A stretch of DNA of 64,000 bases. Source: Labia minor. Taxonomy: Eukaryota > Arthropoda > Insecta > Dermaptera > Spongiphoridae. Positions within the stretch are counted from its first letter, which is position 1; each line of letters starts with the position of its first letter. The position numbers and the translations under genes were made by a program. The notes under the pieces are model-generated. The model made no database searches, was not told the DNA's origin, and saw nothing but the letters and a program-made list of their open reading frames with translations. Positions 1,214-62,760 of this stretch are shown here, piece after piece. The DNA lies in NCBI GenBank assembly GCA_963082975.1, contig OY720346.1:46787296-46851295 (forward strand), read 5' to 3'.

Positions 1214-1841
1214 TTTTTACTATCTCGCCAGAGATAGTATTGCGATCACGAAAATTTTCGATGTTGAGATTTTGATGTTTTTATACGTTTTGAAGGTTCC
1301 TGAATCATTTTCACTAAGGTTGAGAAAAATGTCTGTCTGTGTGTGTGTGTGTGTATGTGTGTGTGTGTATGTGTGTATGTATGTAGGCAAGATTACGCAA
1401 AAACGGTTTGAGCTAGAATGATGAAATTTGGTACATGGACATTATTCAAAATTCATAGTTTTCTATCAACTTTTGAGAAATGTAGCTCAACCGGAAGAGG
1501 GTCATTACCTACAACGTTTTGATTTTTTTTCCTCTAAAGTGACCGTAAAAATAAAGATATATGTTTGATAATTTTTCACATGATTAATAATTGTATAAAA
1601 CTGCTATATATAGAATTTCAGCTTGATTGAATCACTGAAAGTACCAGAATTAATTTTTTAACACTGCAAATCTCACGCGCCAACACGTGCCATGGTGCCA
1701 TCAATAAAAAACCAAACATGCGCTGGTTTAATATTTATTATTTATAATTTATAATTAATTAAATTTAATTTAAAAATAATATATTATGTTATTTAATCCA
1801 ATTCAAATTGCGAGATAGTCGAGTGGAGACACTCCAGCTAA
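1214..1841 (+). mobile_element. Helentron-like non-autonomous element, family A, copy 1 (full length)
   Basis: The left end carries ACTATCTCGCCAGAGATAGT, itself a hairpin with GCCA as loop. A conserved block follows, then a (TG)n/(TATG)n microsatellite at about 1333-1384, then a core containing GATGAAATTTGGTACATGG and CAACCGGAAGAGGGTCATT. The right end holds the inverted subterminal motif GCGAGATAGT (about 1810-1819), then the hairpin GAGTGGAGACACTC (1821-1834), then CAGCTAAT. This order of subterminal motif, block, microsatellite, core, inverted motif and 3' hairpin is the known plan of Helentron-associated (DINE-1/HINE) elements, which code for nothing and depend on a Rep/helicase partner. 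The layout is seen directly; the Helentron assignment is inferred. No coding capacity is present. Confidence 0.75.
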
Positions 1842-2499
1842 TTTAAATTATTGTTCCACCGTGTTCTTAATCTACCCTTCGGCTCGTTGCTTGTCCGAAT
1901 CAATTTCCCCCTTAACATTAATAATTTATTTATAAAAAATCTTTTATATAATAATAGTTTATGATTTGAAAGTTTTATATTTGATATAAAAGAATAGGCT
2001 TACTTAAATATACATTTGTTGCATAAATTATATGTTTATGCTAATAAATTTCATAACTTAACCAATATATTTTGTTATATAAACATTCTTCCCTTAAGAT
2101 AACTAAATTTATTTTAAATGAATTTTTGTAAAAGAAATATCACTCGAGTACTAAAATAGAACTTTGGCACAGATATCAATTAAAAATAAATAAATTAAAG
2201 GTATCATTATTTATATTTACTAGAAATAAATATTATATTATTACTTAAATACGAAATTACACATTCTGATAAATTAAAAAAAAAAAATTATTAGTATTTT
2301 CCTAAAGAAATTCGTTATGAATTGGAACTTTAGTGGAATCGTTTTTAAGAATCAATAAGCGGGAGTGTCCTCCCCTAGACTTTCCCGCATATAAATAGGT
2401 ATAAAGAGTTGTGAATGAATATTTAGAATGTGTAAACTTGGTATTGATAAAGAGCCAGTTCGTATTAGTTTATTGGTGTCAAATTTGATATTTGGTAAC

Positions 2500-2500
<1 letters not shown>

Positions 2501-2541
<41 letters not shown>
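2501..2541. repeat. (TA)n microsatellite
   Basis: An uninterrupted TA dinucleotide run within family B copy 1. It is absent from the second copy at 55.5 kb, so it or its flank changed after the copies separated. Confidence 0.9.
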
Positions 2542-2546
<5 letters not shown>

Positions 2547-3360
2547 AAAGTGCTACTTCCGGTTAACTGATATTTTAAATGTAAAAAAAAACAGATATGG
2601 ATATAATATAAATATTTTTAATTTTATTTTATTTATAATATATAAGGGCTGGCTGTGACGTCATGAAGTGCTGGGTGACGTCATATAATTTTAAATTAAG
2701 AAAAAACTAATGAAGATGATTTTTCTCGAGGATAAAACCAATACAAAGTGCATAACATGTGGAGATATGTAATCCTTCACTTCCTCTCTTCGATCGGCAA
2801 TACTAGCACTTCCGGTTTCCGGATTTGCACCAAAAGTTGATCAATTCATCATACTGATGCATTAAGTAAATATACCAAATTTCATCAAAATCCGTTGAGC
2901 CGTTCAAGCTGTACACATCTATACGGACGGACGGACAGACATCATGCTAAAAATACTTTTTTCTGTTAAGAAAATGCATGATTCGTGGAGATATGTACCT
3001 AAAAATATCCATAGGTGAAATTTGGTGTGAAAACAATACCTCCCTTACTATCGTCGGTCGGTAAAAAAGAAACGCTACTTGTATAGGTAAAATGTCACTT
3101 CCGGTAGACAGATCATGATGAAATTTGGTATCTAAATTTTTTTCATATTTTTAAATCTATATACAAAATATGAAGCAAATATCTCGAAGCAAACTGGTAC
3201 TTTACTTGAAAGGTAAACGCAACCAGTGTAGGTAAAGTACCACTTCCGGTTAACCGATTTTGACGAAATTTTGATAGAAATCTACAAACTGTGAATAATA
3301 TCGGTGTACCAAATTTCGAAGTCCTAGCTTGATTAGTTTTTGAGTAAATTTGCTTACAGA

Positions 3361-3362
3361 CA

Positions 3363-3393
<31 letters not shown>

Positions 3394-3431
3394 CATACAT
3401 ACATACATACATACATACATACACACACACA
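3361..3431. repeat. (CATA)n / (CA)n microsatellite
   Basis: Tandem CATA units passing into CACACACA. It is the built-in microsatellite of the family B element and also occurs, shorter, in copy 2 at about 56405-56460. Confidence 0.9.
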
Positions 3432-3879
3432 GACATAATTCGAAAAATGGTATTTTCCGACTCAGGGAGGTCTAAAACGTCAAGATCTATCGAAATCTCG
3501 AAGTCGAAATTTTTGACGATTCCAATACTTCCCTTATACGAAGTATGCGGGAAAGTAAAAAAAAGTAGAATTTCCAATTTCAATTTAAATACATAAAATC
3601 TCTTAGAAATTTTTAAAATAGAAATTCTAAATATTCACTAAAAATATAAATATAATATTATACAGTAACGTACAGTTTTTTAAAAGCAAAACAAAGAAGA
3701 AAAATTAGATAATTTTTAAATTAATATAAAACACACACAATTTAGGGAAGGAAAATAATTTATTATCTCTGATGAACCAATTGAGTTTAATAAACAATGA
3801 ATAAAAATGTCCGAATTGCTAAGGCCAATAATAAATAAATAATAAATAATAATTATCGTTGAAAAAATCGAGATATAAA

Positions 3880-4294: not shown

Positions 4295-4892
4295 TTAGCT
4301 GGAGTATCTCCACTCGACTATCTCGCAATTTGAATTAGATTAAATAACATAATATATTATGTTAAAATTAAATGTAATTAATTATAAATTATAAATTACA
4401 ATCAATAAATAATATTTATTAAACCAGTGCATGTTTGGCTCTTTGTTGATGGCACCACGTCACGTGTTGGCGCGTGTTAAAAAAATAATTCTGGTACTTT
4501 CATCAATGGGCACCACTGCTGAAATTCTATATATAGCAGTTTTATACAATTTTTAATCATGTGAAAAATTATCAAACATATATCTTTATTTTTACGGTCA
4601 CTTTAGAGGAAAAAAATTGAAAACGTGGTAGATAATGACCCTCTTCCGAAAGAGCTACATTTCTCAAAAGTTGATAGAAAACTACGAATTTTGCACGTGT
4701 ACCAAATTTCATTATTCTAGCTCAAACCGTTTTTGCGTAATCTAATCTACATACACATACACACACAGAGAGAGAGACAGACATTTTTCTAAACCTTAGT
4801 GAAAATGATTCAGGAACTTCAAAACGTATAAAAACCTCAAAATCTCAAATCGAAATCGAAATCGCAATACTATCTCTGGCAAGTAGTAAAAA
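4295..4892 (-). mobile_element. Helentron-like element, family A, copy 2 (full length, inverted)
   Basis: Same family as 1214-1841 in the opposite orientation. It begins with the 3' signature (ATTAGCTGGAG, terminal hairpin, CGACTATCTCGCAATTTG) and ends with the 5' signature (GCCAGAGATAGTATTGCGAT read on the minus strand). The microsatellite is short here (about 4750-4782, CA and GA units). Several substitutions relative to copy 1 suggest an older insertion. Confidence 0.75.
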
Positions 4893-7104: not shown

Positions 7105-7354
7105 TTGATATACACCAAAAGTTGATGAATTCATGCTACTGATACATTAAGTAAATATATCAAATTTTATCAAAATCCGTTCACGTCTATCGGACACACA
7201 ATGGACAGACGGACGGATAGGCAGACGGAAGGACGGACAGACATCATGCAAAAAATACTGTTTGCTGTTAATAAAATGCATGATTCGTGGAGAAATGTAA
7301 AAATCTCCAAAGGTGAAAACAATATTTTCCATTCCTATCGTCGGTCGGTAAAAA
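7105..7354 (-). mobile_element. Family B Helentron-like fragment
   Basis: Matches the middle of the family B element at about 2830-3065. It shares CACCAAAAGTTGAT, the TAAGTAAATAT(A/T)CAAATTT(C/T)ATCAAAATCCG block, the GGACGGACAGACATCATGC microsatellite, ATGCATGATTCGTGGAGA and TATCGTCGGTCGGTAAAAA. Both ends of the full element are missing. Open frames on both strands here come from the GGAC array and are not genes. Confidence 0.65.
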
Positions 7355-7654
7355 TTATTACTAATATTATTAGTATTGTATTAAGAAGTATCAGTATTCC
7401 AGTCAATAAACGTATCATTGCAAGATGGTACCAATATCTCATATTAATGAAAAATTTTGATATATAAAAAATTATTAAATATTAAATAAAAATAAAATTT
7501 AAAATTTAAAATATTAAATAATTATTGATTCAAAATATAATTTAAAAAACCAATTGGTCATCAGATAGTAGTTATATTATCTATACATCTAAAAATATTA
7601 GAAATATTTTAATTCAGAATGATTATTATAAATTATAATTTATAACCTATCTTC

Positions 7655-7961
7655 TTTAGATGGAATCTCTTCTATGATTTGTCGATTTTGTAGCTCATCT
7701 CTCTCGCTTGGCTGTATAAATGTGAGGGGCTGTATGAGTGAGTTTAGTGATGGAGTGGAGGGGTTCATGAGAGTGAGGGAGGAGGGGAGGTTGGAGGGGA
7801 AAGCCGGCAGCTCACACGCTTGACGATTGCCGGCCGGCAGTCGGCTTTCGACCTCACAGGAGGTGATACTCATCTACACTTCCTATTCATTCTTTTTTTT
7901 TCGATAACCAGTGAATGATTAGCCATGCTTGTCAATAAAAACTAAGTGAATTTGATTATTT
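7655..7961 (+). promoter_or_regulatory. Probable promoter and 5' UTR of the Ig-domain receptor gene
   Basis: A strongly GC-raised island directly upstream of the exon 1 start codon. It contains a TATAAAT box-like motif at 7715-7721, a GA/GGAGG-rich purine stretch at about 7745-7800, and a perfect 12-bp palindrome TGCCGGCCGGCA at 7828-7839. The transcription start is not visible; if the TATA-like motif is used it would fall about 30 bp downstream, near 7745. Position and base composition support the call; the promoter elements themselves are inferred. The minus-strand open frame across this region is probably chance. Confidence 0.5.
7925..7945 (+). other. Short upstream ORF (6 codons) before the receptor start
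   Basis: ATG CTT GTC AAT AAA AAC TAA ends 16 bases before the receptor ATG and is in a different frame. If this part of the leader is transcribed, it could reduce initiation at the main start. Only the sequence supports it. Confidence 0.35.
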
Positions 7962-8019
7962 ATGCTTCTCGCAATGTGGCTACTTGGAATTGGAATCATT
8001 TTCTTCACCATCACACAGG
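7962..8019 (+). CDS. Exon 1 of a PTK7/off-track-like Ig receptor: signal peptide
   Basis: The exon encodes MLLAMWLLGIGIIFFTITQ plus the first base of a split codon, then a consensus donor (CACAGG|GTGAGT). A short N-terminus, a hydrophobic core of about 15 residues and a polar Gln at the end make a typical secretory signal peptide. The exon ends in phase 1 and joins exon 2 (phase-1 start) to give ...ITQ-V-FGEEG..., placing the likely signal cleavage close to the splice junction. I chose the ATG at 7962 because it leads into the signal peptide; a second in-frame Met follows four codons later. The protein would enter the secretory pathway and, by family, sit in the plasma membrane. A gene split into a signal-peptide exon and Ig-domain exons is usual for this superfamily. 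Confidence 0.75.
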
Positions 8020-11000
8020 GTGAGTAACTACTAACCTTTCTACCACGTGCTGACAACGAAAGAGAAATGTCAATCCTTCTTATCAATCATCATGAATATT
8101 ATTTCTCAACAATATAAGAAATCATCCATTTTAATAAACATTGGATAAACATTCGTTCAAACATATTCATTTAATTTGGTTTTGTTTAATTTTTATTTTT
8201 AATTTAACTATTTTATATTTAATTATGTTTTAACGTAATATGTAATCAGTATACTACCTTGTTAATAATTAATATTAATTATTTAATTAATTAATTTGTT
8301 TTTTATATAAAAAAAAATATACATTGTATATTGAATTGAAATTTATGCTAAACTAATAAATTCATATCTATATATATTATAGATATATATAGATAGATAG
8401 ATAGATAATTTGATATTTATATAAACATACATTTAATCATAATAATATATTGATATTAAATAATATAATAACTAATAATAATTTCATTAATTATTATAAA
8501 ATATTATTATTTTAAATATTTTTGTTTTAATCCATCACACATTTAATAGTATTTTTCATTTTCTTTTAAATTTTTATTTATTAGAAAGCCACACACTGGA
8601 ATGTACGTATATATTATGTTTTAATGGATTTACCGCTTAACTTTTTTCGATCAACCCCTCGCACACCCGACTTTAATCTGAAAAAGGGTAGACCAGGTGC
8701 CCTATGTCTCTGAGTCATTCATATTGTGAAAACCCATGTGGAATAGGATCGATGTATGCCACTTTTATCATATAATAATAATAACTAATATCTTTACAAT
8801 ATATATACGATATAAATATATTCTATTTAAATAACGAAACTCACAGAATTTAAATATTTGAAACTGACTATTCGTCATTAGAAAATGTTTTTGAAAGATT
8901 TATTGTCAAATTTAATGAATCACTTTTAACAAAAGTTGCTATAAATATTTCAAATTAAATATAAAATAATTTAGAGTTTAAATTAAAGTGATCAAGAGCA
9001 AAAGGGTTTTGAGAAGTGACACCCTCCTCCTACCACAAAAATATAAAAAAACTAAAATTCCTACATCAAATTCAATTCTAAAATTCTATTTATATTATTA
9101 TACTTATATGAAAATAAATCATTTTTAAAGTTTCTCATAGTTAAAAAAAAATTAATTAATTATGGATCATTTGTGAAATTTAAAACAAATTGTTTAACTA
9201 AGATAATTTTACAAAAAAAATTATTGTTTAATTCATATATTATAGAAAAAATCATACAATTAACTAATTTAATGTAATTTTTTTCTGTAACTCACTTTCA
9301 TCTGATTCTCTCTCTCTTCTGTTCTATTCACAGCAACCTCATCCCTTCAATCACCATCCAATTTCTATCTTCTTCCAAATCCTACTCATCTTTATATCGT
9401 CTGTCTACCAGTCGTATGAATAAACTTTTCAAAAGCAAATTTATAATTCACGTCTACAACGAATGAATCCTTTTATTTATTTTAAGATAAACTATGCTTG
9501 GAGATGCATAGAGATAATGCGATTCATCTTTATTTAATCTGCGCCATTCCTCACAGTGATCTAATCTATTTTTCAGACAATAAATATTGAGAAGAATTTT
9601 AATTTCAAATACACTGATTCTATACTCTTTCTGTCATGTACTCGTTTTTATTCTTATCTTTTATATTATTTGTACCTAAGTGATTATATTTAAAAAAAAA
9701 TCCAACAATTTTTACTATTTTTTTTTATTAATTCTTATCTTTTTGATAATTTTATTTAAACTTTTGGTATTTATTCAGGAATTTATTATTTAGATGGATT
9801 TATTTTGTTTTGTTTTTTTTTATTTTTTTGTCTGTTCAGTTTTATTTATCTTACATACCTTCGAAAAGAAATTCCTTTTCTTGAATTCGTTTTAAATTCC
9901 AACATTCTACTATTTTTTTATATTTCATTAAGGGCTACGATAAATATAAGTTAACTGTTATATTAATTTATTGGTGTTTTAGTTTGATTTGTATATAGAT
10001 TGATTTTTTAATTAGAAGATGTGGAATATGGAATTTATTCTATTATCGAAGCGATATCTAAATTCGATAACTTAACTTTAAGCAAATATAAGAACATGGG
10101 AATTTGAATGATACATCCTATATAAATTCAGAACAGATCCACTCCCTGCTTTGATATGCCTGATATGATTGATATAATTAACAATTTTCAAAATATTAAT
10201 AATGATTTTATGTAAATCATCTAAGATAATAACAAATCACAATGAATGTAAAAAAAGAATCAAAAACTATTTCTCTTTTTTAGATAATATAATTATCAAA
10301 ACGATAAAATATTTCTCATTTCGTTGGACTTGATCGATTTAGTGTGATTGAGTGGCATGAGAGGTCTTCATTTCTTGCAGGACCGGAGCTCCCCCCACCT
10401 TATCTCTTGAATGTTATCTATATATTACTTCCAGAAGCATTTTTTTCAAAATAAAGTCAATAATTTATTTAATTTAATTATTAATATTATAATTAATTTT
10501 AATTATTTGACTTTTCTAAATAATAAGAAAAAAAAAATTGTAAAAAATTGAAATTTCAAAAGCAGCTGGTTACTCTTTTCGATGATATTGTTATATGCAA
10601 ATAATTTTTTATCTTTTTTTTCATAAAATGCATAAATAATAAATTTAATGTTTTTAGTATCCGGTTTGTTTAAAATATCAATATTTCCTTTAAAATTTTT
10701 CTTTTTCATTTCTTTTCTTTTCTTTTTTTTTTTTGTAAATAAAGAAATCTTGAATCGATCAGAAGATTATCTATCGTCTGTGCAGAATGGCCATAGGTAT
10801 AATAAGAAATGCAAATTTAATAGTAGGTATATGTGGTTAAATCGAAATGGCTTCGTGTAAAAAACGCCGTTATTCGCTACCACGATGATAATATTTTATA
10901 AATCTACCAACCTGTTATTTATATTCTAAAACCTACTAATTTATCTAAAAGTCCTTTATTATGGATAGATACCTTTTACTGAATTATAAATATAGATATT

Positions 11001-20549: not shown

Positions 20550-20699
20550 TTGTATTTTTGAAATATTAAACCCCACTAAGGATTTTTTTTAAAATTCATA
20601 CCTTATATAATTTTTATAAAGAAAAATCGATCTGTATTGGTTTCAGCAGAAAAATCATCTTTGTTAGTTTTTTCTTAATTTAAAATAGGAATTTTAATA

Positions 20700-20995
20700 A
20701 TAAAAATATGGCACCGGACAGCGCTTCCTTAAATACAAAATATTATAAATAAAATAAAATTAAAAATATTTATTTTAATAATATTTTTAATATCAAATTA
20801 CGAAATATATATTACTAATATACTAATTTATGTGTTCTTTTAAATTATTTGAAATTGTGTTTCATATACATATTTTGTCATTTATTTATTTTAAATAATA
20901 ATCCTAATCTTATCGATATTCATAGTTCATAAGGGTTAATTTTTTGTAAAGTGTCGAGCCGCGGCTCGGTGAATCAGGTACCAATCTTGAATAAA
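20700..20995. repeat. Repeat fragment related to the 5' region of the hAT element
   Basis: AATATTTATTTTAATAATAT followed by TCAAATTACGAAAT at about 20765-20808 also occurs in the hAT element upstream region at about 30346-30388. Farther on, GAGCCGCGGCTCGG at 20956-20969 forms a GC-rich inverted repeat. Its boundaries are unclear. Confidence 0.35.
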
Positions 20996-23480: not shown

Positions 23481-23626
23481 CAGGTTAACATTTGGCAAAA
23501 TTTATTTTGTGAAAAGAAATATTAGAACAAGTGAAATATACACCAAAGAATATTATTATTTAAAATTTACTCGTATAAATGAAAAATACCGGGACCCCGA
23601 GCTTCGGCTCGGTACTTAAGTTAAAA

Positions 23627-24095
23627 TTAGCTGGAGTGTCCCCACTCGACTATCTCGCAATTTGAATTGGATTAAATAACATAATATATTATATTTAAAT
23701 TAAATTTAATTAATTATAAATTATAAATAATAAATATTAAACCAGCACATGTTTGGCTTTTTATTGATGGCACCATGGCACGTGTTGGCGCGTGAGATTT
23801 GCAGTGTTAAAAAATTAATTCTGGTACTTTCAGCAATTCAATCAAGCTGAAATTCTATATATAGCAGTTTTATACAATTATTAATCATGTGAAAAATTAT
23901 CAAACATATATTTTTATTTTTACGGTCACTTTAGAGGAAAACAAATCAAAACGTTGTAGGTAATGACCCTCTTCCGGTTGAGCTACATTTCTCAAAAGTT
24001 GATAGAAAACTATGATTTTTGAATAATGTCCATGTACCAAATTTCATCATTCTAGCTCAAACCGTTTTTGCGTAATCTTGTCTACATACATACTA
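23627..24095 (-). mobile_element. Helentron-like element, family A, copy 3 (5' truncated)
   Basis: Starts with the 3' signature ATTAGCTGGAGTGTCC and CGACTATCTCGCAATTTG and runs through the core (GATGAAATTTGGTACATGG on the minus strand). It stops in the short microsatellite at about 24085-24095, so the 5' block and the 5' subterminal motif are missing. A GC hairpin (CCGAGCTTCGGCTCGG, 23597-23612) lies just outside the 3' end. Confidence 0.72.
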
Positions 24096-29587: not shown

Positions 29588-30060
29588 TCTTAGTGCAGTG
29601 GTTCTTAAACTGTGGTCCGCGGACCCCTGGGGGTCCGCGAAGCCTTTACTGGGGGTCCGCGGTCCTCGGAAAAAAATCATCGTAAAAATATATACATATA
29701 TAAATATTTAAAGTTCATTGTTTAACTATATCCTCCTAGAGAATTACGGCTATAATTTAATACTATTAATAATACTATTTTATTTTATTAAATTGATAAT
29801 TATGTCAATTAATTTTTTGTGAATAAATAAACATATATAAAAAACTATATATAAAATTTGAATTTTCATCCATTCATTCATTTAAAATCATTTTTCGATT
29901 GTTCCTTTAAAATAACCCCTCTTAGGGGCTCGGAAGGGGAGGCATATAAGGGAATTTTCTTTCACTTTGTTATTGGGGAAAACCAGGGGAGGGGACAGTC
30001 TTACCCGGAAAAACCCAAATTGTCAGCGTCCACTCTGGGGTTTTAAACAGTTTTAAAGCA

Positions 30061-30170: not shown

Positions 30171-30646
30171 AATTTAATTAATTATAATTAAATTATAGCT
30201 AATAATAGTTTATTATAGCTAATAATTTTTTTTAATTTTTAGTGTAATTTGCATGATCATTATTTTATAAAAACACTAAACACATTTTGCAATTTCCCAG
30301 AAAGGCTGTTTTTGAGAGTAAGTATAAGTTAGTTTTATGAATAAAAAATATTTATTTTAATAATATTTTAGAATCAAATTACGAAATTAATAATATTTTA
30401 GAATCAAATTACGAAATATATTTATTATATAAATTAATATTCATTTAAAATGATATTAAATCATTTATTTAAAATGATTTAAAACATTTATTAAAATGAT
30501 TTAAAACATTCATTTAAAATGATATTAAAACATTCATTTAAAATCATATTAAAACATAGCTAGTAAATAATAATTCGTTATATTTATATTATATTTATAT
30601 TATATTTATATTATTGTAGTTCAATGTTAATAAATTACTCCATAAA

Positions 30647-31501
30647 ATGGATCGTTGGCTACAAACTGGTTCAACACAGAAACGGAAAGAATCAGATGAT
30701 GAGGCATCAACAGCAAACTCTACCAAGAAACGCAAAACTAGAAAATATTCGGATGATTATTTATCATTTGGATTTACTTATATTTGCAACAATGATGTGG
30801 AAAGACCAGTCTGCGTTCTATGTCAGGAAAGTTTATCCAATGAAAGTATGAAACCTGCTAATCTCAGACGTCATTTACAAACAAAGCACAGCGAGCATGT
30901 TAGTAAGTCTATCGAATTTTTTAAAATGGAAAAAGAAGAACTTAATTCAAGTCAGAAATTGATGGTAAAGACGGGATCTGGTGGTATGAGTAAGAAAGCA
31001 GTAATGGCATCATATGAAGTAGCTCTACTTATTGCTAAAGCAGGAAAGCCGCATAATATAGCAGAGCAATTAATTCTTCCTGCTACAAAAGTAATTACAA
31101 ATATAATGTTAGGAACTAAAGCAGCAAACGATATAAATTTGATTTCATTATCAAATGATACGGTTAAGAATAGGATTGAAGACATGTCATGTAATATAAA
31201 AGAAGAATTAATATCGAGAGTGCGCAAAAGTCACTATTACTCATTACAATTGGATGAAAGTACTGATGTCACTAATAATGCCAATTTGTTAGCTTTCATT
31301 AGATATGAGTTTGAAAATCAAATACAAGAAGATGTATTGTTTTGTGATTCACTACCTTCACGAACGACAGCTAATGACATATTTAACAGTTTGAATAATT
31401 TTATAACCGAAAATGAAATAGAGTGGCCAAAATGTGTTGGAATTTGCACTGATGGTGCTCGTGCAATGTCAGGTACAAGAACTGGATTGATTGCTCTTAT
31501 T
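30647..31501 (+). pseudogene. hAT transposase, N-terminal part (ZBED/SCAND3-like family)
   Basis: The frame begins MDRWLQTGSTQKRK, a start usual for this hAT clade, and 285 codons remain before the nested insertion. A basic nuclear-localisation-like stretch (KKRKTRK, residues 27-33) precedes a BED-type zinc finger (C56, C59, H76, H81). The RNase H-like core follows, with LDESTD (D203) and CTDG (D269), by family comparison the first two acidic catalytic residues. The enzyme would excise and insert the hAT element by cut-and-paste through hairpin intermediates. The frame is undamaged up to the insertion, after which translation would run into foreign sequence and stop near 31573. The remainder of the gene is at 34228-35231. 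Confidence 0.88.
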
Positions 31502-32358
31502 AATAATACTTTATATAAAAAAAAAACTTTTTTAAAAAACCACGTTTTTAACGCACTAAAAAGAAGAAAATAATTTTTCTGAAACCCCATAGGTACTGAC
31601 ATTACAAACAAGAGATATGATTTGAAGAAAATTTTCTATAACGTAAAACGTGGGGCGCAACTATGGCTAAAATATTCTGTATCGTATAAAAATTTATAAA
31701 TAAATGTTATTAGGTACAAATTAATAGGATAAATGAATTCATATTTTAATTAGCTTCAAAAAGTAAAGCTTATAACTTATCGAAATTTTTAAAAGAGGTA
31801 AATTTAATTTATGAAAAGATTACCTTTAGATTACTAATAATATTCACTTTTAAAAAATTCTGATAAAAAATGACATCCTAACAATATTCTGGTAAATAAT
31901 ATAAGAAATTTAACTTGAAGAAATCTAAAACTAAATTTTGCTACTGCAAAACTTCTAGCAAATATTTAATATTTATGTTAATAAAATTTCTAAAGTGTAA
32001 ATTGAAGATGTTTATTTAATATTAAGGAATTAATTTTCCAAAAAAAATTTACATTAATAAAAGTATTCTGTTGGATTACTAATAATATTCCCTTTTACAA
32101 AAAGTCTGGTAAAAAATATAAAACTTAAAATATAAATCCATGGATATTGAAATAAATTAATCAAAGAAATTATATTGCATTTAAAAAATTTATTATTATT
32201 TGCGCCCCACGTTTTACGTTATAGAAAATTTTCTTCAAATCATATCTCTTGTTTGTAATGTCAGTACCTATGGGGTTTCAGAAAAATTATTTTCTTCTTT
32301 TTAGTGCGTTAAAAACGTGGTTTTTTAAAAAAGTTTTTTTTTTATATAAAGTATTATT
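31502..32358. mobile_element. Fold-back element with identical 159-bp inverted arms
   Basis: The arm at 31502-31660 and the reverse complement of 32200-32358 appear identical over 159 bp, including a run of ten A. About 539 bp of AT-rich sequence lies between them, with no coding signature. Such long perfect terminal repeats are typical of fold-back elements or long-TIR MITEs, and the identity suggests recent origin or gene conversion. It sits at the left border of the larger insertion in the hAT transposase gene, and its own target duplication is not clear. Confidence 0.75.
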
Positions 32359-34039: not shown

Positions 34040-34225
34040 ATATTCATTAATTATGCTCTAATTAAACACTTGCAAGCTACGAATGTGTTATTTTATTGTA
34101 TTGTCATCCAGAATACATAACTCTGAAAAGTTTCAGAGCGATTGGATGACTGGAAGTGGTCGAAATTTCGATTGCAAGATTTGACGCGAACAGATAAACA
34201 AGAAAGCAAGCTAAGAAAAACGTGG
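34040..34225 (-). repeat. Direct repeat, copy 2
   Basis: Second copy of the unit at 32717-32926, in the same orientation, with a shorter ACAA run and few differences. It forms the right border of the insertion, directly followed by the resumed hAT transposase frame. Confidence 0.65.
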
Positions 34226-34227
34226 TA

Positions 34228-35231
34228 AAAATGTTGCGCCTCAGGTTGTTTGGAATCATTGCTGCATTCACAGAGAATCATTAGCAGCCAAAAATATGTC
34301 ACCAGATTTGAAAAGAACATTAGACGAAGTAGTTAAAATTGTCAATTTCATTAAGGCTCGTCCACTTAATTCCAGAGTTTTTAAAATTTTGTGTGAGGAA
34401 ATGGGTAGTCAACATACACATTTATTATTACATACAGATGTACGTTGGTTGTCCCGCGGGAAAGTACTCATTCGCCTTTTTGAGCTTCGAGATGAAATAC
34501 GATTGTTTTTAATAGATGCGCATTTTGAACTGACCGAATGTTTCAATGATTTTATCTGGTTAGCTAAGGTGGCTTACTTGACTGATATTTTTACAAAATT
34601 GAACGAACTTAATTTGAGCCTGCAAGGTACTGTTGTAAATATATTTAAAGTTGAAGATAAAATAGAAGCAATGATTAAAAAAATCGACTTGTGGTCGAAA
34701 CGCATCCAGAACGGTGTATATGAGTCTTTTCCAACTCTCAATGATTTCATAGAAAGCTCCAGTGAAAAATTGCTTAATCAAACGCGTCAATTATTTGTTG
34801 AACATTTAATTACTTTGAAAAGCAACTTCAGGAAGTATTTTTCTACTCCTGATCCTTGCAATAACTGGATCAGAGATCCATTTAATATGGAAATTACAAA
34901 TGCTAAACATTTATCTGCACCTGAACAAGATATTCTCGTGGAATTATCATGTGATACAACTTATAAACTAAAATTTAACAAAACTGAATTGAGCAACTTT
35001 TGGTTACTTCTCAGGTCAGATTATCCTGCGCTTGCAAATAAAGCACTTCAACACTTGATTCCATTCTGCACAACATATTTATGCGAACAAGCTTTTTCGG
35101 TACTATTTTATATTAAGTCTAAATATAGAAACAAATTAAATGTAGAGCCGGATCTTAGATTAAAAGTTTCCAATATTAAGCCAGATATTGAGATTCTTGT
35201 TTCAAGAAAACAACTGCATACATCTCATTAA
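34228..35231 (+). pseudogene. hAT transposase, C-terminal part
   Basis: The frame resumes as NVAPQVVWNHCCIHRESLAA and continues without a stop for about 333 residues to TAA at 35229-35231. The ATG at 34296 is internal and not the natural start. Visible family landmarks are the C-x2-H motif (CCIH), DEVVKIVNFIKARPLNSR, HTDVRWLSRGKVL with the conserved Trp, and near the end the hAT C-terminal dimerisation region TTYLCEQAFSVL with IKSKYRNKL. The Glu of CEQAFS is by family comparison the third acidic catalytic residue (inference). With the N-terminal part this gives about 620 residues, normal for ZBED/SCAND3-like hAT transposases. It is separated from its own start by the nested insertion. Confidence 0.88.
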
Positions 35232-36245: not shown

Positions 36246-36509
36246 AATGAAAAATGCTTTTAGGTTTATTATTGCATTTTCAAATCCAAAACAGAACATA
36301 ATTAATTTTTATTATTATTATTAATTCTTTTTATAAAATTTGGGAATTTTTATTTATAGAAAAAAAAATATGCCAATTAAAACAAATATTTCTAAATTAT
36401 TATTTTTTTTTATTCTTTTTTTTATATATATATATTCCCATATTCTTCCAAAATAATAATAAAAATATTTTTAATTACAAAATTCTAAATTGAATTGATA
36501 TACCTATTA

Positions 36510-36967
36510 TTTTTACTATCTCGCCAGAGATAGTATTGAGATCACGAAAATTTTCGATGTCGAGATTTGGATCTTTTTATACGTTTTGAAGGTTCCTATA
36601 AGGTTGAGAAAAATGTCTGTCTCTCTCTCTCTCTGCGTGTGTGTGTATGTAGACTAGATTACGCAAAAACGGTTTGAGCTAGAATAATGAAATTTGGTAC
36701 ACGGGCATTATTCAAAATTCAGTTTTCTATTAACTTTTGAGAAATGTATCTCTTTCGGAAGAGGAACATTACCTACCACAATTTTCATTTTTTTTCCTCT
36801 AAAGTGACCGTACAAATAAAGATATATGTTTGATAGTTTTTTACATGATTAAAAATTGTATAAAACTGCTATATATAAAATTTCGGCTTGATTGAATAGC
36901 TGAAAGTGCCGGATTTAATTTTTTAACACGACTCCAAATAACGCGCCAGCACGTGACGTGATCCCAT
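36510..36967 (+). mobile_element. Helentron-like element, family A, copy 4 (3' truncated)
   Basis: Begins with TTTTTACTATCTCGCCAGAG and runs through the CT/GT microsatellite (36616-36651) and the core (AATGAAATTTGGTACACGGG) to CACGTGACGTG. It then passes into unrelated AT-rich sequence before reaching the inverted motif and terminal hairpin. It is more diverged than copies 1 and 5. Confidence 0.72.
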
Positions 36968-37324
36968 GAATCTTTGCAATGTTTTTTTTTTTGATACATA
37001 TTAATATCTAATATTAATACATTTTTAATTAATTTTATTTAATAATATTAATATTAATTTTAGTTAATAAAAAAAAACAATTTTAATAAATTTTATTTTT
37101 AAAAATAAGACCCTAAACAGATTGATTTTCAGTTCAAAAATCTCATAAAAACTGAATTTAAAAAATAAAATCTTAGGAGGTGTGTTTAAAAGATCAGAAA
37201 ACCAAATAAACACATACATATAATGTTTTAAATATCCGTGGAATTTTTGCTCATATAATCGAAGAATATAAACTTTTATATGCAATTATGGTTGCATAAA
37301 TCACTTATCATTATCCACCACCAA

Positions 37325-55537: not shown

Positions 55538-56404
55538 TATTTAGAATGTAATAAAGTGCTACTTCCGGTTAACTGATATTTTAAATGTAAAAAAAACAGA
55601 TATGGATATAATATAAATATTTTTAATTTTATTTTATTTATAATATATAAGGGCTGGCTGTGACGTCATGAAGTGCGGGGTGACGTCATATAATTTTAAA
55701 TTAAGAAAAAACTAATGAAGATGATTTTTCTCGAGGATAAAACCAATACAAAGTGCATAACACGTGGAGATATGCCTTCACGTGAAATTTGATATGAAAA
55801 TAACCCTTCACTTCCTCTCTTCGATCGGCAATACTAGCACTTCCGGTTTCCCGATTTGCACCAAAAGTTGATCCATTCATCATACTGATGCATTAAGTAA
55901 ATATACCAAATTTCATCAAAATCCGTTGAGCCGTTCAAGCTGTACACATCTCTAGGGACACACAGCGGACGGACGGACAGACATCATGCTAAAAATACTT
56001 TTTTCTGTTAAGAAAATGCATGATTCGTGGAGATATGTACCTAAAAATATCCACTGGTGAAATTTGGTGTGAAAACAATACCTCCCTTACTATCGTCGGT
56101 CGGTAAAAAGGAAACGCTACTTGTATAGGTAAAATGTCACTTCCGGTAGTCAGATCATGATGAAATTTGGTATCTGAATTTTTTTCATATTTTTAAATCT
56201 ATATACAAAATATGAAGCAAATATCTCGAAGCAAACTGGTACTTTACTTGAAAGGTAAACGCAACCATTGTAGGTAAAGTACCACTTCCGGTTAACCGAT
56301 TTTGACGAAATTTTGATAGAAATCTACAAACTGTGAATAATATCGGTGTACAAAATTTCGAAGTCCTAGCTTCATTAGTTTTTGAGTAAATTTGCTTACA
56401 GACA

Positions 56405-56435
<31 letters not shown>

Positions 56436-56591
56436 CATACATACATACATACACACACACAGACATAATTCCAAAAATGGTATTTTCCGACTCAGGGAGG
56501 TCTAAAACGTCAAGATCTATCAAAATCTCGAAGTCGAAATTTTTGACGATTCCAATACTTCCCTTATACGAAGTATGCGGGAAAGTAAAAA
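55538..56591 (-). mobile_element. Helentron-like element, family B, copy 2 (3' truncated)
   Basis: Nearly identical to copy 1 from the CTACTTCCGGTTAACTGATA module to the 5' terminus TTTTACTTTCCCGCATACTT (minus strand, ending near 56591). It lacks the 3' subterminal motif and hairpin. It keeps a segment of about 26 bp (around 55774-55800, CTTCACGTGAAATTTGATAT) that is missing from copy 1, so neither copy is simply derived from the other. The microsatellite (56405-56460) is shorter than in copy 1. Confidence 0.72.
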
Positions 56592-56962: not shown

Positions 56963-57563
56963 TTTTTACTATCTCGCCAGAGATAGTATTTCGATCACGA
57001 AAATTTTCGATGTTGAGATTTTGATGGTTTTATACGTTTTGAAGGTTCCTGAATCATTTTCACTAAAGTTGAGAAAAATGTCTGTGTGCATGTGTATGTG
57101 TGTATGTATGTAACCAAGATTACGCAAAAACGGTTTGAGCTAGAATGATGAAATTTAGTAAATAGGCATGATTCAAAATTCATAGTTTTCTATCAACTTT
57201 TGAGAAATGTAGCTCAACCGGAAGAGGGTCATTACCTACAACGTTTTGATTTTTTTTCCTCTAAAGTGACTGTAAAAATAAAGATATATGTTTGATAATT
57301 TTTCACATGATTAAAAACTGCTATATATAGAATTTCAGCTTGATTGAATAGCTGAAAGTACCAGAAATAATTTTTTAACATTGCAAATCTCACGCGCCAA
57401 CACGTGACGTGGTGCCATCAACAAAGAGCCAAACATGCGCTGGTTTAATACATATTATTTATTAATTTTAATTTATAATTTAATTGATTTAATTTAATTT
57501 AAATTAATATATGTTATTTAATCCAATTCAATTTTGCGAGATAGTCGAGTGGAGACACTCCAG
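56963..57563 (+). mobile_element. Helentron-like element, family A, copy 5 (full length)
   Basis: Starts TTTTTACTATCTCGCCAGAG and ends with GCGAGATAGT, hairpin GAGTGGAGACACTC and CCAG. Microsatellite (57083-57112, TG/TATG) and core are present. It is close to copy 1 in sequence. The last bases (CCAGATTT) differ from CCAGCTAATTT of the other copies, which helps place the 3' boundary at or near the CAG. Confidence 0.75.
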
Positions 57564-57593
57564 ATTTTTTTTAAATTAAACTAAAAATGTGCA

Positions 57594-61356: not shown

Positions 61357-61603
61357 TAGTGATTCTCAACCACTGTGCCGCGGCACTTTAGTGTGCCGCG
61401 AGATTATGATGCTCTTAAACATTTCCGACTTTTTTTTCTAAATTTTTTCAATTTGGTTCTTAAAAAAAAAGAAAAAAAGTAAACCGTTTTTGGGACCACT
61501 TCTTTTCAATATGGTAAACTTTTACACTTATCTTTTTCTTTGTGTGCCGCCAAATTAAACCGTTAAAAGTGTGCCATGGTAAAAAAAAGATTGAGAATCA
61601 CTG
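61357..61603. mobile_element. hAT-type MITE (247 bp) with exact 8-bp duplication
   Basis: Left end TAGTGATTCTCAACC; reverse complement of the right end CAGTGATTCTCAATC. Exact duplications CATTAGAT lie at 61349-61356 and 61604-61611. Subterminal GTGTGCCGCG and TGTGTGCCGCC repeats resemble the subterminal repeat layout of the larger hAT at 29.6 kb. No coding sequence. Confidence 0.85.
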
Positions 61604-61611
61604 CATTAGAT

Positions 61612-62760
61612 AGACAGTTACCATCACGGATTAGTAATATTTAATATATGACTTAAGGAATATTGGACTTGTATCGAAATTTCGCTCTTATTAATTAATA
61701 AACATATTTATTTGAAAACACAAAAATAAAAAATATATAAAATTATTTTATTCATGCTTTTGGTTAAAATAAATAATTTTAATATTTTCTGATTAAATAG
61801 AAATCTCAGATATTAATACTATATACATATATACAAGTGATTTATTTATTATTATTTTATAATATGTGGATACAATTATTATTTTATAAATTAACCATTA
61901 ATTATACAACAGAAAAAATATAACAATAATATTCATATATTATAATAACTAACAACATATCATTACAATCAATATTTATTGATTTTTTTTAAGTTATCAA
62001 ATGAATTTTAACAACAATAAAAATATTTCTGTTTTCTGCCCGAAAATAATTAATGTCATTATCAATGACTGATCCATGTTATGCTGTATTAATTCAAAAT
62101 TACATATCTTTTGTAAATTAATCAATTAATTATATTCGTATTTATTGTTTTTTTTTAGAAATATGTACATATATACTAATACTTATATAATACTTATATA
62201 AATTACATTTATTTAAGTAAATTTATATTTTTAACTTCAATCACATTTTAAAATATAAAGGTTAGCAAATTAAATCAACAAGAAAGGTTGTTATAAAAAC
62301 ATATCAGATTGATCTAATATAATTTAACTTTGTTTAAAATTCATTTGTATTTCAGTCCAATTTGTGGTTCCTTATTATTATAAAAATTTTAAAAAAAGCA
62401 TTGAATTGTTATTTGAAAATACATTAATCTCTCTGTCTCCCTCTCCCTTCAATTCATTCAGGGTAATACCACAAATCCTCGTTGCTTTTTGACAGATATG
62501 ATTATTAGTCTGATATATATATATATATAAATAAATTTTGCTCTGTCCGATTGTCACTATTAAACCATTTCACTGACAGACCACCATTGTAGACACTAAT
62601 TCGAAATTATTTACCAATTGAATTTATGAAACGTTTTTGTCAAAGCTTGTCAAATTAAGATAGAAAATAAGTAAAGACAGAATGACTAGAAATTTATAAT
62701 TCATAATTTATAATATGTGAGTTCATATATTTATAATATTATTATACAAAATGATTGCTG
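61612..62760. other. AT-rich stretch without a recognisable gene
   Basis: Simple AT-rich sequence, with (TA)n at about 62513-62530 and a CT patch near 62430. No coding or repeat signature otherwise. Confidence 0.5.

Follow-up and report, generated by a model that had tools for sequence, protein, structure and literature searches.

Background

The closest described systems are DINE-1 and the HINEs, non-autonomous derivatives of Helentrons, presented by Thomas, Vadnagara and Pritham (2014; PMC4067079). The present work concerns two repeat families, A and B, found in a 64,000-nucleotide stretch of the Labia minor genome (the window; G000:C4:46787296-46851295), and the genome searched comprised 604,477,936 bases in 71 contigs. 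With the published DINE-1 and HINE elements the two families have in common the subterminal inverted repeats (subTIRs), a microsatellite and a 5' inverted repeat that starts with an arm inside the subTIR, possibly also a stem at the 3' end, as well as insertion into T-rich sequence with an unmodified target and a variable number of terminal Ts. Like the HINEs, they appear to be deletion derivatives of an element encoding Rep, helicase and endonuclease, which they outnumber; from the sequences this relationship is firm for A and rests on one rearranged locus for B. Unlike the mite HINEs (12-15 bp) and DINE-1 (13 bp) of the same paper, A and B carry subTIRs of 10 bp.

A and B are very probably non-autonomous Helentron derivatives (HINEs, DINE-1-like), each keeping the ends of its own Helentron and lacking the coding middle. 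The initial annotation, made from the letters of the window, had arrived at the Helentron link by inference; the evidence is now direct, the ends of A being present on one element, designated the A-type Helentron, and those of B at one locus, designated the B-type locus. What began as an inference from raw sequence has thus become a worked HINE-Helentron case, with two sister non-coding families, their own partner loci and empty sites. The system represents a mostly known arrangement, in which only a candidate C48 protease domain on the A-type protein is possibly new.

Results and discussion

Common plan of families A and B

Family A is represented in the first part of the window by A1 (1219..1841, plus strand), which runs from ACTATCTCGC to CAGCTAA and is bordered by five Ts on one side and TTT on the other. 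Family B is represented by B1 (2356..3556, minus strand), a long-form copy running from ACTTTCCCGC to CCCGCTTA, whose two ends are also present at the B-type locus; about 112 bp of it (query 1020-1131) are missing from several other B copies. No stop-to-stop frame of 130 residues lies over A1, and one 163-residue frame overlaps B1.

A shared plan and common descent had been proposed for the two families, and the motifs on which the proposal was based were found in place: the 5' motifs TTTTACTATCTCGC at 1215-1228 (plus strand) and TTTTACTTTCCCGC at 3547-3560 (minus strand), the block AATTTTCGA / AAATTTCGA, the microsatellite of GT type in A1 (1330..1384, plus strand) and of TGTATG type in B1 (3355..3437, minus strand; TACA on the plus strand), the core motifs GAAATTTGGTACA, ATTATTCA and CCGGAAG in A and B alike, and the end motifs. 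When up to two mismatches were allowed, the 5' motif gave six matches, five of them exact and all in A or B copies. Shuffled sequence yielded 1.99 on average, and none of 100 shuffles reached six. The 3' pattern (up to three mismatches) gave four matches, all in A copies, with a mean of 0.00 in 100 shuffles; the tail of B1, being one base longer, was not matched by this pattern.

A 10-bp subterminal inverted repeat is present in both A1 and B1, and was found in 134 of 20,000 random segments of 600-1,200 bp taken from the AT-rich window (GC content 0.23-0.29). The repeat is perfect over 10 bp in each family, and the families differ from each other at two of the ten positions on both sides, so that ACTATCTCGC/GCGAGATAGT of A and ACTTTCCCGC/GCGGGAAAGT of B covary with two compensated differences. 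In A1 the 5' subTIR and the 5' inverted repeat ACTATCTC-GCCA-GAGATAGT, whose first arm lies inside the subTIR, occupy positions 1219..1240 of the plus strand; this fold was equalled by none of 200 shuffles (z -7.3), and its counterpart in B by 9 of 200 (z -2.2). The 3' subTIR of A1 is followed by a short stem, TGGAG/CTCCA, and the terminus CAGCTAA (1810..1841, plus strand), and in B1 the 3' subTIR and the stem GGGAG/CTCCC lie at 2360..2388 (minus strand), the two stems differing by one compensating change. The 3' hairpin that had been predicted for both families proved the stronger in B (z -3.7, 0/200), part of the subTIR being paired in the most stable structure, and was weak in A folded alone (z -1.5, 15/200 shuffles as good).

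BLAST aligned A1 with B1 at 73 % identity over 186 bp (E 1.6e-23) and with B2, the second window copy of family B, at 69 % over 294 bp (E 4.5e-24). The A-B alignment (E about 1e-24) goes beyond chance. Common ancestry of the two families is supported, and each would have drifted apart from the other in step with two sister Helentrons. Since their subTIRs and their partners differ, they would not form one family under the rule given in PMC4067079, by which at least 11 bp of subTIR should be identical.

The A-type Helentron

A search of the genome with the PF14214 profile gave 104 matches. One of them (C1:47868109) sits in an unbroken frame of 2,181 codons, with the first ATG at codon 17, inside an element of 12,169 bp excluding Ts, the A-type Helentron (C1:47862609-47874777, minus strand). 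The frame carries the Helentron-type motif YERVEFQMRGSPHEH and the domains DUF6570, Helitron_like_N (E 1.3e-23), PIF1 (E 1.9e-31) and an endonuclease. The latter matched Exo_endo_phos_2 (PF14529) at E 9.1e-5 and 22.7 bits, under the Pfam cut-off of 27.4, and its motifs GDFNI and HKPVY, read by eye, are similar in the B-type remnant.

Both ends of family A are borne by this Rep-helicase-endonuclease element. The 5' end lies beyond a 4.3-kb leader, with the first 26 of 26 bases exact and 521 bp identical at 96 %, and the 3' end motif is exact and stands 1.25 kb beyond the stop codon, where the surrounding A sequence is limited to about 50 bp (96 %). As A 3' ends occur about once per 118 kb per orientation, a lone end would be found that close by chance in an estimated 1-4 % of cases. 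A second copy of the element (C1:44694181-44700650) is broken into pieces that are mostly 90-97 % identical; its 3' region and end agree with those of the first at 99 % over 249 bp, and in a third, also broken copy (C10:37189978-37193101) the A 5' end is present upstream. Chance would not produce a 3' end without the core in two copies together with 5' ends at two, each of them facing outward and in the expected order. Comparison of the sequences firmly indicates that family A corresponds to the A-type Helentron with its middle removed.

In the mechanism proposed for both families, the Rep (HUH) domain of the Helentron would recognise and nick the shared ends, and the PIF1-type helicase would release one strand during rolling-circle replication. 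A T-run at the target site would be nicked by the fused AP-type endonuclease, and the released strand would be joined there without target duplication. The unbroken A-type frame, together with the near-identical A copies, makes the system a candidate in which Helentron transposition could be tested, as well as the targeting of T-runs by the endonuclease, a role on which biochemical studies are called for in PMC4067079.

Pieces of the A-type leader (L048/L047) recur upstream of other Rep frames that encode much less similar proteins. Before the Helentron at C1:55787452 (L073) the match is 89.8 % over about 1.8 kb and the proteins are 40-51 % identical; before the Rep element G5 (L043/L044) it is 72-90 % in pieces and the proteins are 31-37 % identical; a further piece lies in the window at 29753-29895 (87 % over 149 bp). 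This recurrence could reflect either module exchange or shared dispersed repeats. A block of about 730 bp richer in G+C, perhaps an insertion, is visible in the 3' part of the A-type element (about 7812-8545 of the reverse complement of L047).

The B-type locus and the source of Rep

A single rearranged locus (C1, about 44692854-44706630, minus strand) has the two ends of B around a sister Rep, helicase and endonuclease, with the parts in order and orientation. It begins with the 5' end of B (88.6 % over 491 bp) and continues into remains of Rep and helicase that are 55-60 % identical to the A-type protein and an endonuclease remnant. Next comes a copy of the A-type Helentron that is truncated at its 5' side and closes with the A 3' end in a T-run. 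On the 3' side there follow 61 bp of B at 100 %, about 830 bp of another repeat, and 160 bp of B at 98 %, the tail being that of B with one mismatch in the subTIR. The 830-bp repeat (340-1166 of the reverse complement of L070) sits in the TA array of the B tail and is 87 % identical to part of L046 over 530 bp. The simplest reading of these sequences is that the locus represents a B-type Helentron split by an A-type one.

The initial annotation had also implied the use of one Rep/helicase source by both families. In this form the claim is unsupported, as A and B match two Helentrons whose Rep regions are 60-61 % identical, and each HINE is closer to its own: A at 96 % and B at 88.6 and 98 %, against about 68-77 % to the other Helentron. 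A single source could still be meant in another sense, namely that the sole intact enzyme, the A-type protein, mobilises both A and B today. Only the A-type protein was seen unbroken, the sole B-type Rep region found being broken, and the next long genome matches to the latter (>400 aa) are just 54-61 % identical, with pieces of 35-141 aa at 64-69 %. Moreover, long-form B copies (seven, taken as best hits) differ by only 1.8 % on average, so B moved fairly recently. We regard such mobilisation by the A-type enzyme as rather unlikely, given that B ends flank a sister Rep at one locus, that the subTIRs of the two families differ on both sides, and that B is nearer to the B-type locus than to the A-type Helentron; a B partner with an intact frame may have been lost, or may have escaped the assembly or the search.

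The preferred reading, that A and B each derive from their own Helentron, has to be weighed against several observations. On the side of B, the locus is single, broken and devoid of the first ~357 residues of the protein, is interrupted by the A-type copy and holds about 830 bp of foreign repeat in its tail; being single and rearranged, it leaves a small chance that separate B fragments were brought together there. On the side of A, the 2 kb read beyond the C10 copy contained no A 3' end, about 45 bp of an AT-rich joint of A1 (548-591) are unmatched in the A-type Helentron, the 4.3-kb leader contains a tandem duplication and a block resembling the B core, and the 3' hairpin is weak, as described above. 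The endonuclease, besides its sub-threshold score, has no credible PDB match, and an RPA frame was not seen, the 2,181-codon frame being the sole one above 200 aa in L047, with no profile search made for RPA. The flanks of other Rep elements were read only in parts, and the sampling of copies as best hits makes them seem younger.

Insertion sites and other origins

The ends of A were read in 30 HINE copies (3 from the window and 27 from elsewhere in the genome) and in the Helentron; in 31 of 31 cases 3-9 Ts preceded ACTATC or its variant and TT followed the 3' end. The 3' terminus was CTTA in 17 of the 31, CTAA in 13 (the Helentron included) and CAGA in one. For family B, 21 copies were read, 2 from the window and 19 fetched because the hit table covered most of their length, and both ends were present in 20 of them.

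Filled and empty sites could be paired in four cases, three for A and one for B, in which the Ts exceeded the empty run by 0, 1, 1 or 3 and nothing else was duplicated. In the L006 pair (A) T7 and T3 around the insertion correspond to an empty T10. In the L057 and L055 pairs (A) 8 Ts correspond to 7 letters in each paralogue, one of which is not T; the two empty sites lie in the window at 20552..20704 (minus strand, paralogous to the L057 insertion) and at 61392..61612 (plus strand, the repeat that bears an A insertion at the L055 locus). In the L094 pair, a B copy within an A-like copy, T6 and T2 correspond to T5. The four pairs thus show no duplication of fixed length apart from Ts, whose number is variable, in agreement with sections 6 and 16 of PMC4067079. 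The fixed target duplication that the initial annotation had named as evidence against a Helentron origin was absent from all four pairs. Its second such condition, the lack of a Rep/helicase element with matching ends in the genome, was examined as well, and both checks favoured the Helentron origin.

Three further candidates for empty sites were dropped: the two flanks of L054 match different repeats, the 3' flank of L091 is no continuation of its 5' flank, and the 5' flank of L050 failed to align. L054 (an A copy) and L093 (a B copy) have a near-identical 5' flank (...ACAGGTCAACTTA), which may be an insertion hot spot or a longer common repeat.

An origin from canonical Helitrons, which begin with 5'-TC, end in CTRR-3' and insert between A and T, would agree with the short stem near the 3' end, with the CTAA ends, which fit CTRR, and with the presence in the genome of Helitron-type Reps (GLPHxH) in frames of 1,652 and 2,039 codons; it is very improbable in view of the CTTA and CAGA ends, the absence of 5'-TC, the T/T flanks, the lack of either end in the stretches fetched around the GLPHxH elements G2 and G4, and the GSPHEH motif and endonuclease of the partner Reps. 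That A and B are miniature inverted-repeat elements of a cut-and-paste transposon, a class marked by inverted repeats at the very termini and by a target duplication of fixed length, as their shortness, lack of genes, many copies and inverted repeats near the ends might suggest, has practically no chance of being right, for the repeats are subterminal, the ends are asymmetric and common to Rep-helicase elements, and the filled and empty sites show no such duplication.

Other Rep elements of the genome

In a tree of eight Rep sequences the A-type, B-type and H2 Reps grouped together, all with GSPHEH; G5 and H1 formed a second GSPHxH group, and G1, G2 and G4 carried GLPHxH. According to section 7 of PMC4067079, S between G and P is diagnostic of Helentrons. 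The GSPHxH Rep and the PIF1-type helicase are in one frame in the A-type protein, and at the B-type locus the motif is present with the helicase in a broken frame. The GLPHxH, Helitron-type elements of the same genome (e.g. C9:43365333, 1,652 codons) have a Rep of the same Pfam family, PF14214, and differ from the partners of A and B in this motif and in that the A/B ends were not found in the fetched stretches.

Five elements, G2 (C5:34.91 Mb), G4 (C9:43.36 Mb), G5 (C9:34.49 Mb), H1 (C1:85.85 Mb) and H2 (C2:66.55 Mb), were rejected as partners of A or B, as the stretches fetched around them yielded neither a 3' end of A or B, even with up to 8 mismatches allowed, nor an exact 5' end; 13-base 5' motifs with 1-2 mismatches do occur there. 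At 30 further Rep loci (L009-L038) no A or B end was found at the thresholds used in about 1.5 kb on each side of the Rep match.

Four near-identical Rep elements with frames of 1,345-1,785 codons were noticed at C2:71968315, C6:19230938, C9:23424027 and C9:34498524 (L034-L037). The member read, G5, has a Helentron-type GSPHxH motif, and in its relative H1 a Pfam scan at E 0.01 listed no endonuclease; the 'proto-Helentron' of PMC4067079 is offered as a comparison for this group. In G000:C5:46739897-46771612 five Helitron_like_N fragments with identical scores, spaced by about 9.8 and 5.7 kb, form a tandem array of a broken Helitron-like element. Finally, at about 257-272 of L033 a B-like tail, CTAGGGGAGGACACTC, with a diverged subTIR stands near a broken Rep related to G1 (GLPHxH), and perhaps belongs to another tail subfamily.

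A candidate protease domain on the A-type protein

The last ~160 residues of the A-type protein matched Peptidase_C48 (PF02902) at E 5.1e-4 with 20.4 bits, against a cut-off of 20.7, and were aligned with SENP8 (E 0.0033), the residues H, D, Q and C of the two lining up. The candidate domain is also present in the other two A-type copies read, of which one has D changed to N and one contains stops. On the other side, a genome-wide search with PF02902 gave eight matches, none of them at a Helentron, the scan of the whole protein against Pfam at E 0.01 did not list C48, and the AlphaFold model of the C-terminal 242 residues, built from two sequences, was unusable (pLDDT 28.7). Accordingly, it is put forward tentatively, and with somewhat less than even confidence, that the A-type element may be a recently active Helentron whose single protein carries a SENP8/Ulp1-type (NEDD8 or SUMO) protease behind the endonuclease.

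Cysteine-protease domains are known from related elements: OTU domains have been described in Helitrons (PMC2836005) and VTD and OTU deubiquitinase domains in Helentrons (PMC9741609), and Ulp1-like proteases of viruses and Polintons are mentioned in PMC10175614. The A-type protein has the same combination of Rep-helicase, C-terminal AP-type endonuclease and cysteine-protease domain as the VTD/OTU Helentrons of PMC9741609. It differs from them in the placing of this candidate domain behind the endonuclease and in its alignment to SENP8/Ulp1 (C48), the comparison with VTD and OTU being a Pfam scan only; the possible C48 domain likewise sets it apart from the Helentrons of PMC4067079, which are described with OTU or VTD. 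No report of an Ulp1/SENP/C48 domain on Helentrons was found in the literature searched, and its novelty is provisional. Such a domain, if real, would extend the list of ubiquitin-family proteases that rolling-circle transposons have repeatedly recruited, as the third independent case in the Helentron class after OTU and VTD, and the ends of the protease-bearing element would mark a HINE family of about ten thousand copies.

Copy number, age and remaining features of the window

The 34-base 3' end of A had 10,264 exact matches in the genome (5,053 and 5,211 on the two strands), with none for the control, and the A 3' motif gave no match among viral contigs. Family B numbers at least 40 copies, 40 having been scored out of 106 first-look candidates. 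The 27 genome A copies diverge from the majority sequence by 0-2.2 % and A1 by 1.4 %, and the short-form B copies (n=13) differ by 3.8 % on average, compared with the value given above for the long form; the genome copies being best hits to the window copies, these figures favour young ones. On the sequences compared, family A is probably young.

The window holds five copies of A and two of B. Besides A1, both ends are present in A4 (4295..4887, minus strand; 8.8 % from the majority sequence) and A2 (56966..57567, plus strand; 6.2 %), A5 (23621..24093, minus strand) is 5'-truncated and A3 (36508..36971, plus strand) 3'-truncated; B2 (55550..56586, minus strand) has lost its 3' end.

Another repeat at 7107-7355 of the window combines a block resembling the B core (75-77 %) with a GGAC-type tandem array, and is perhaps a third sister family. 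Two long frames on the plus strand (30620-31573 and 34215-35231) resemble, by eye, pieces of a ZBED/hAT-type transposase. A 162-bp inverted repeat with arms 99 % identical is present at 31502-31663 and 32197-32358.

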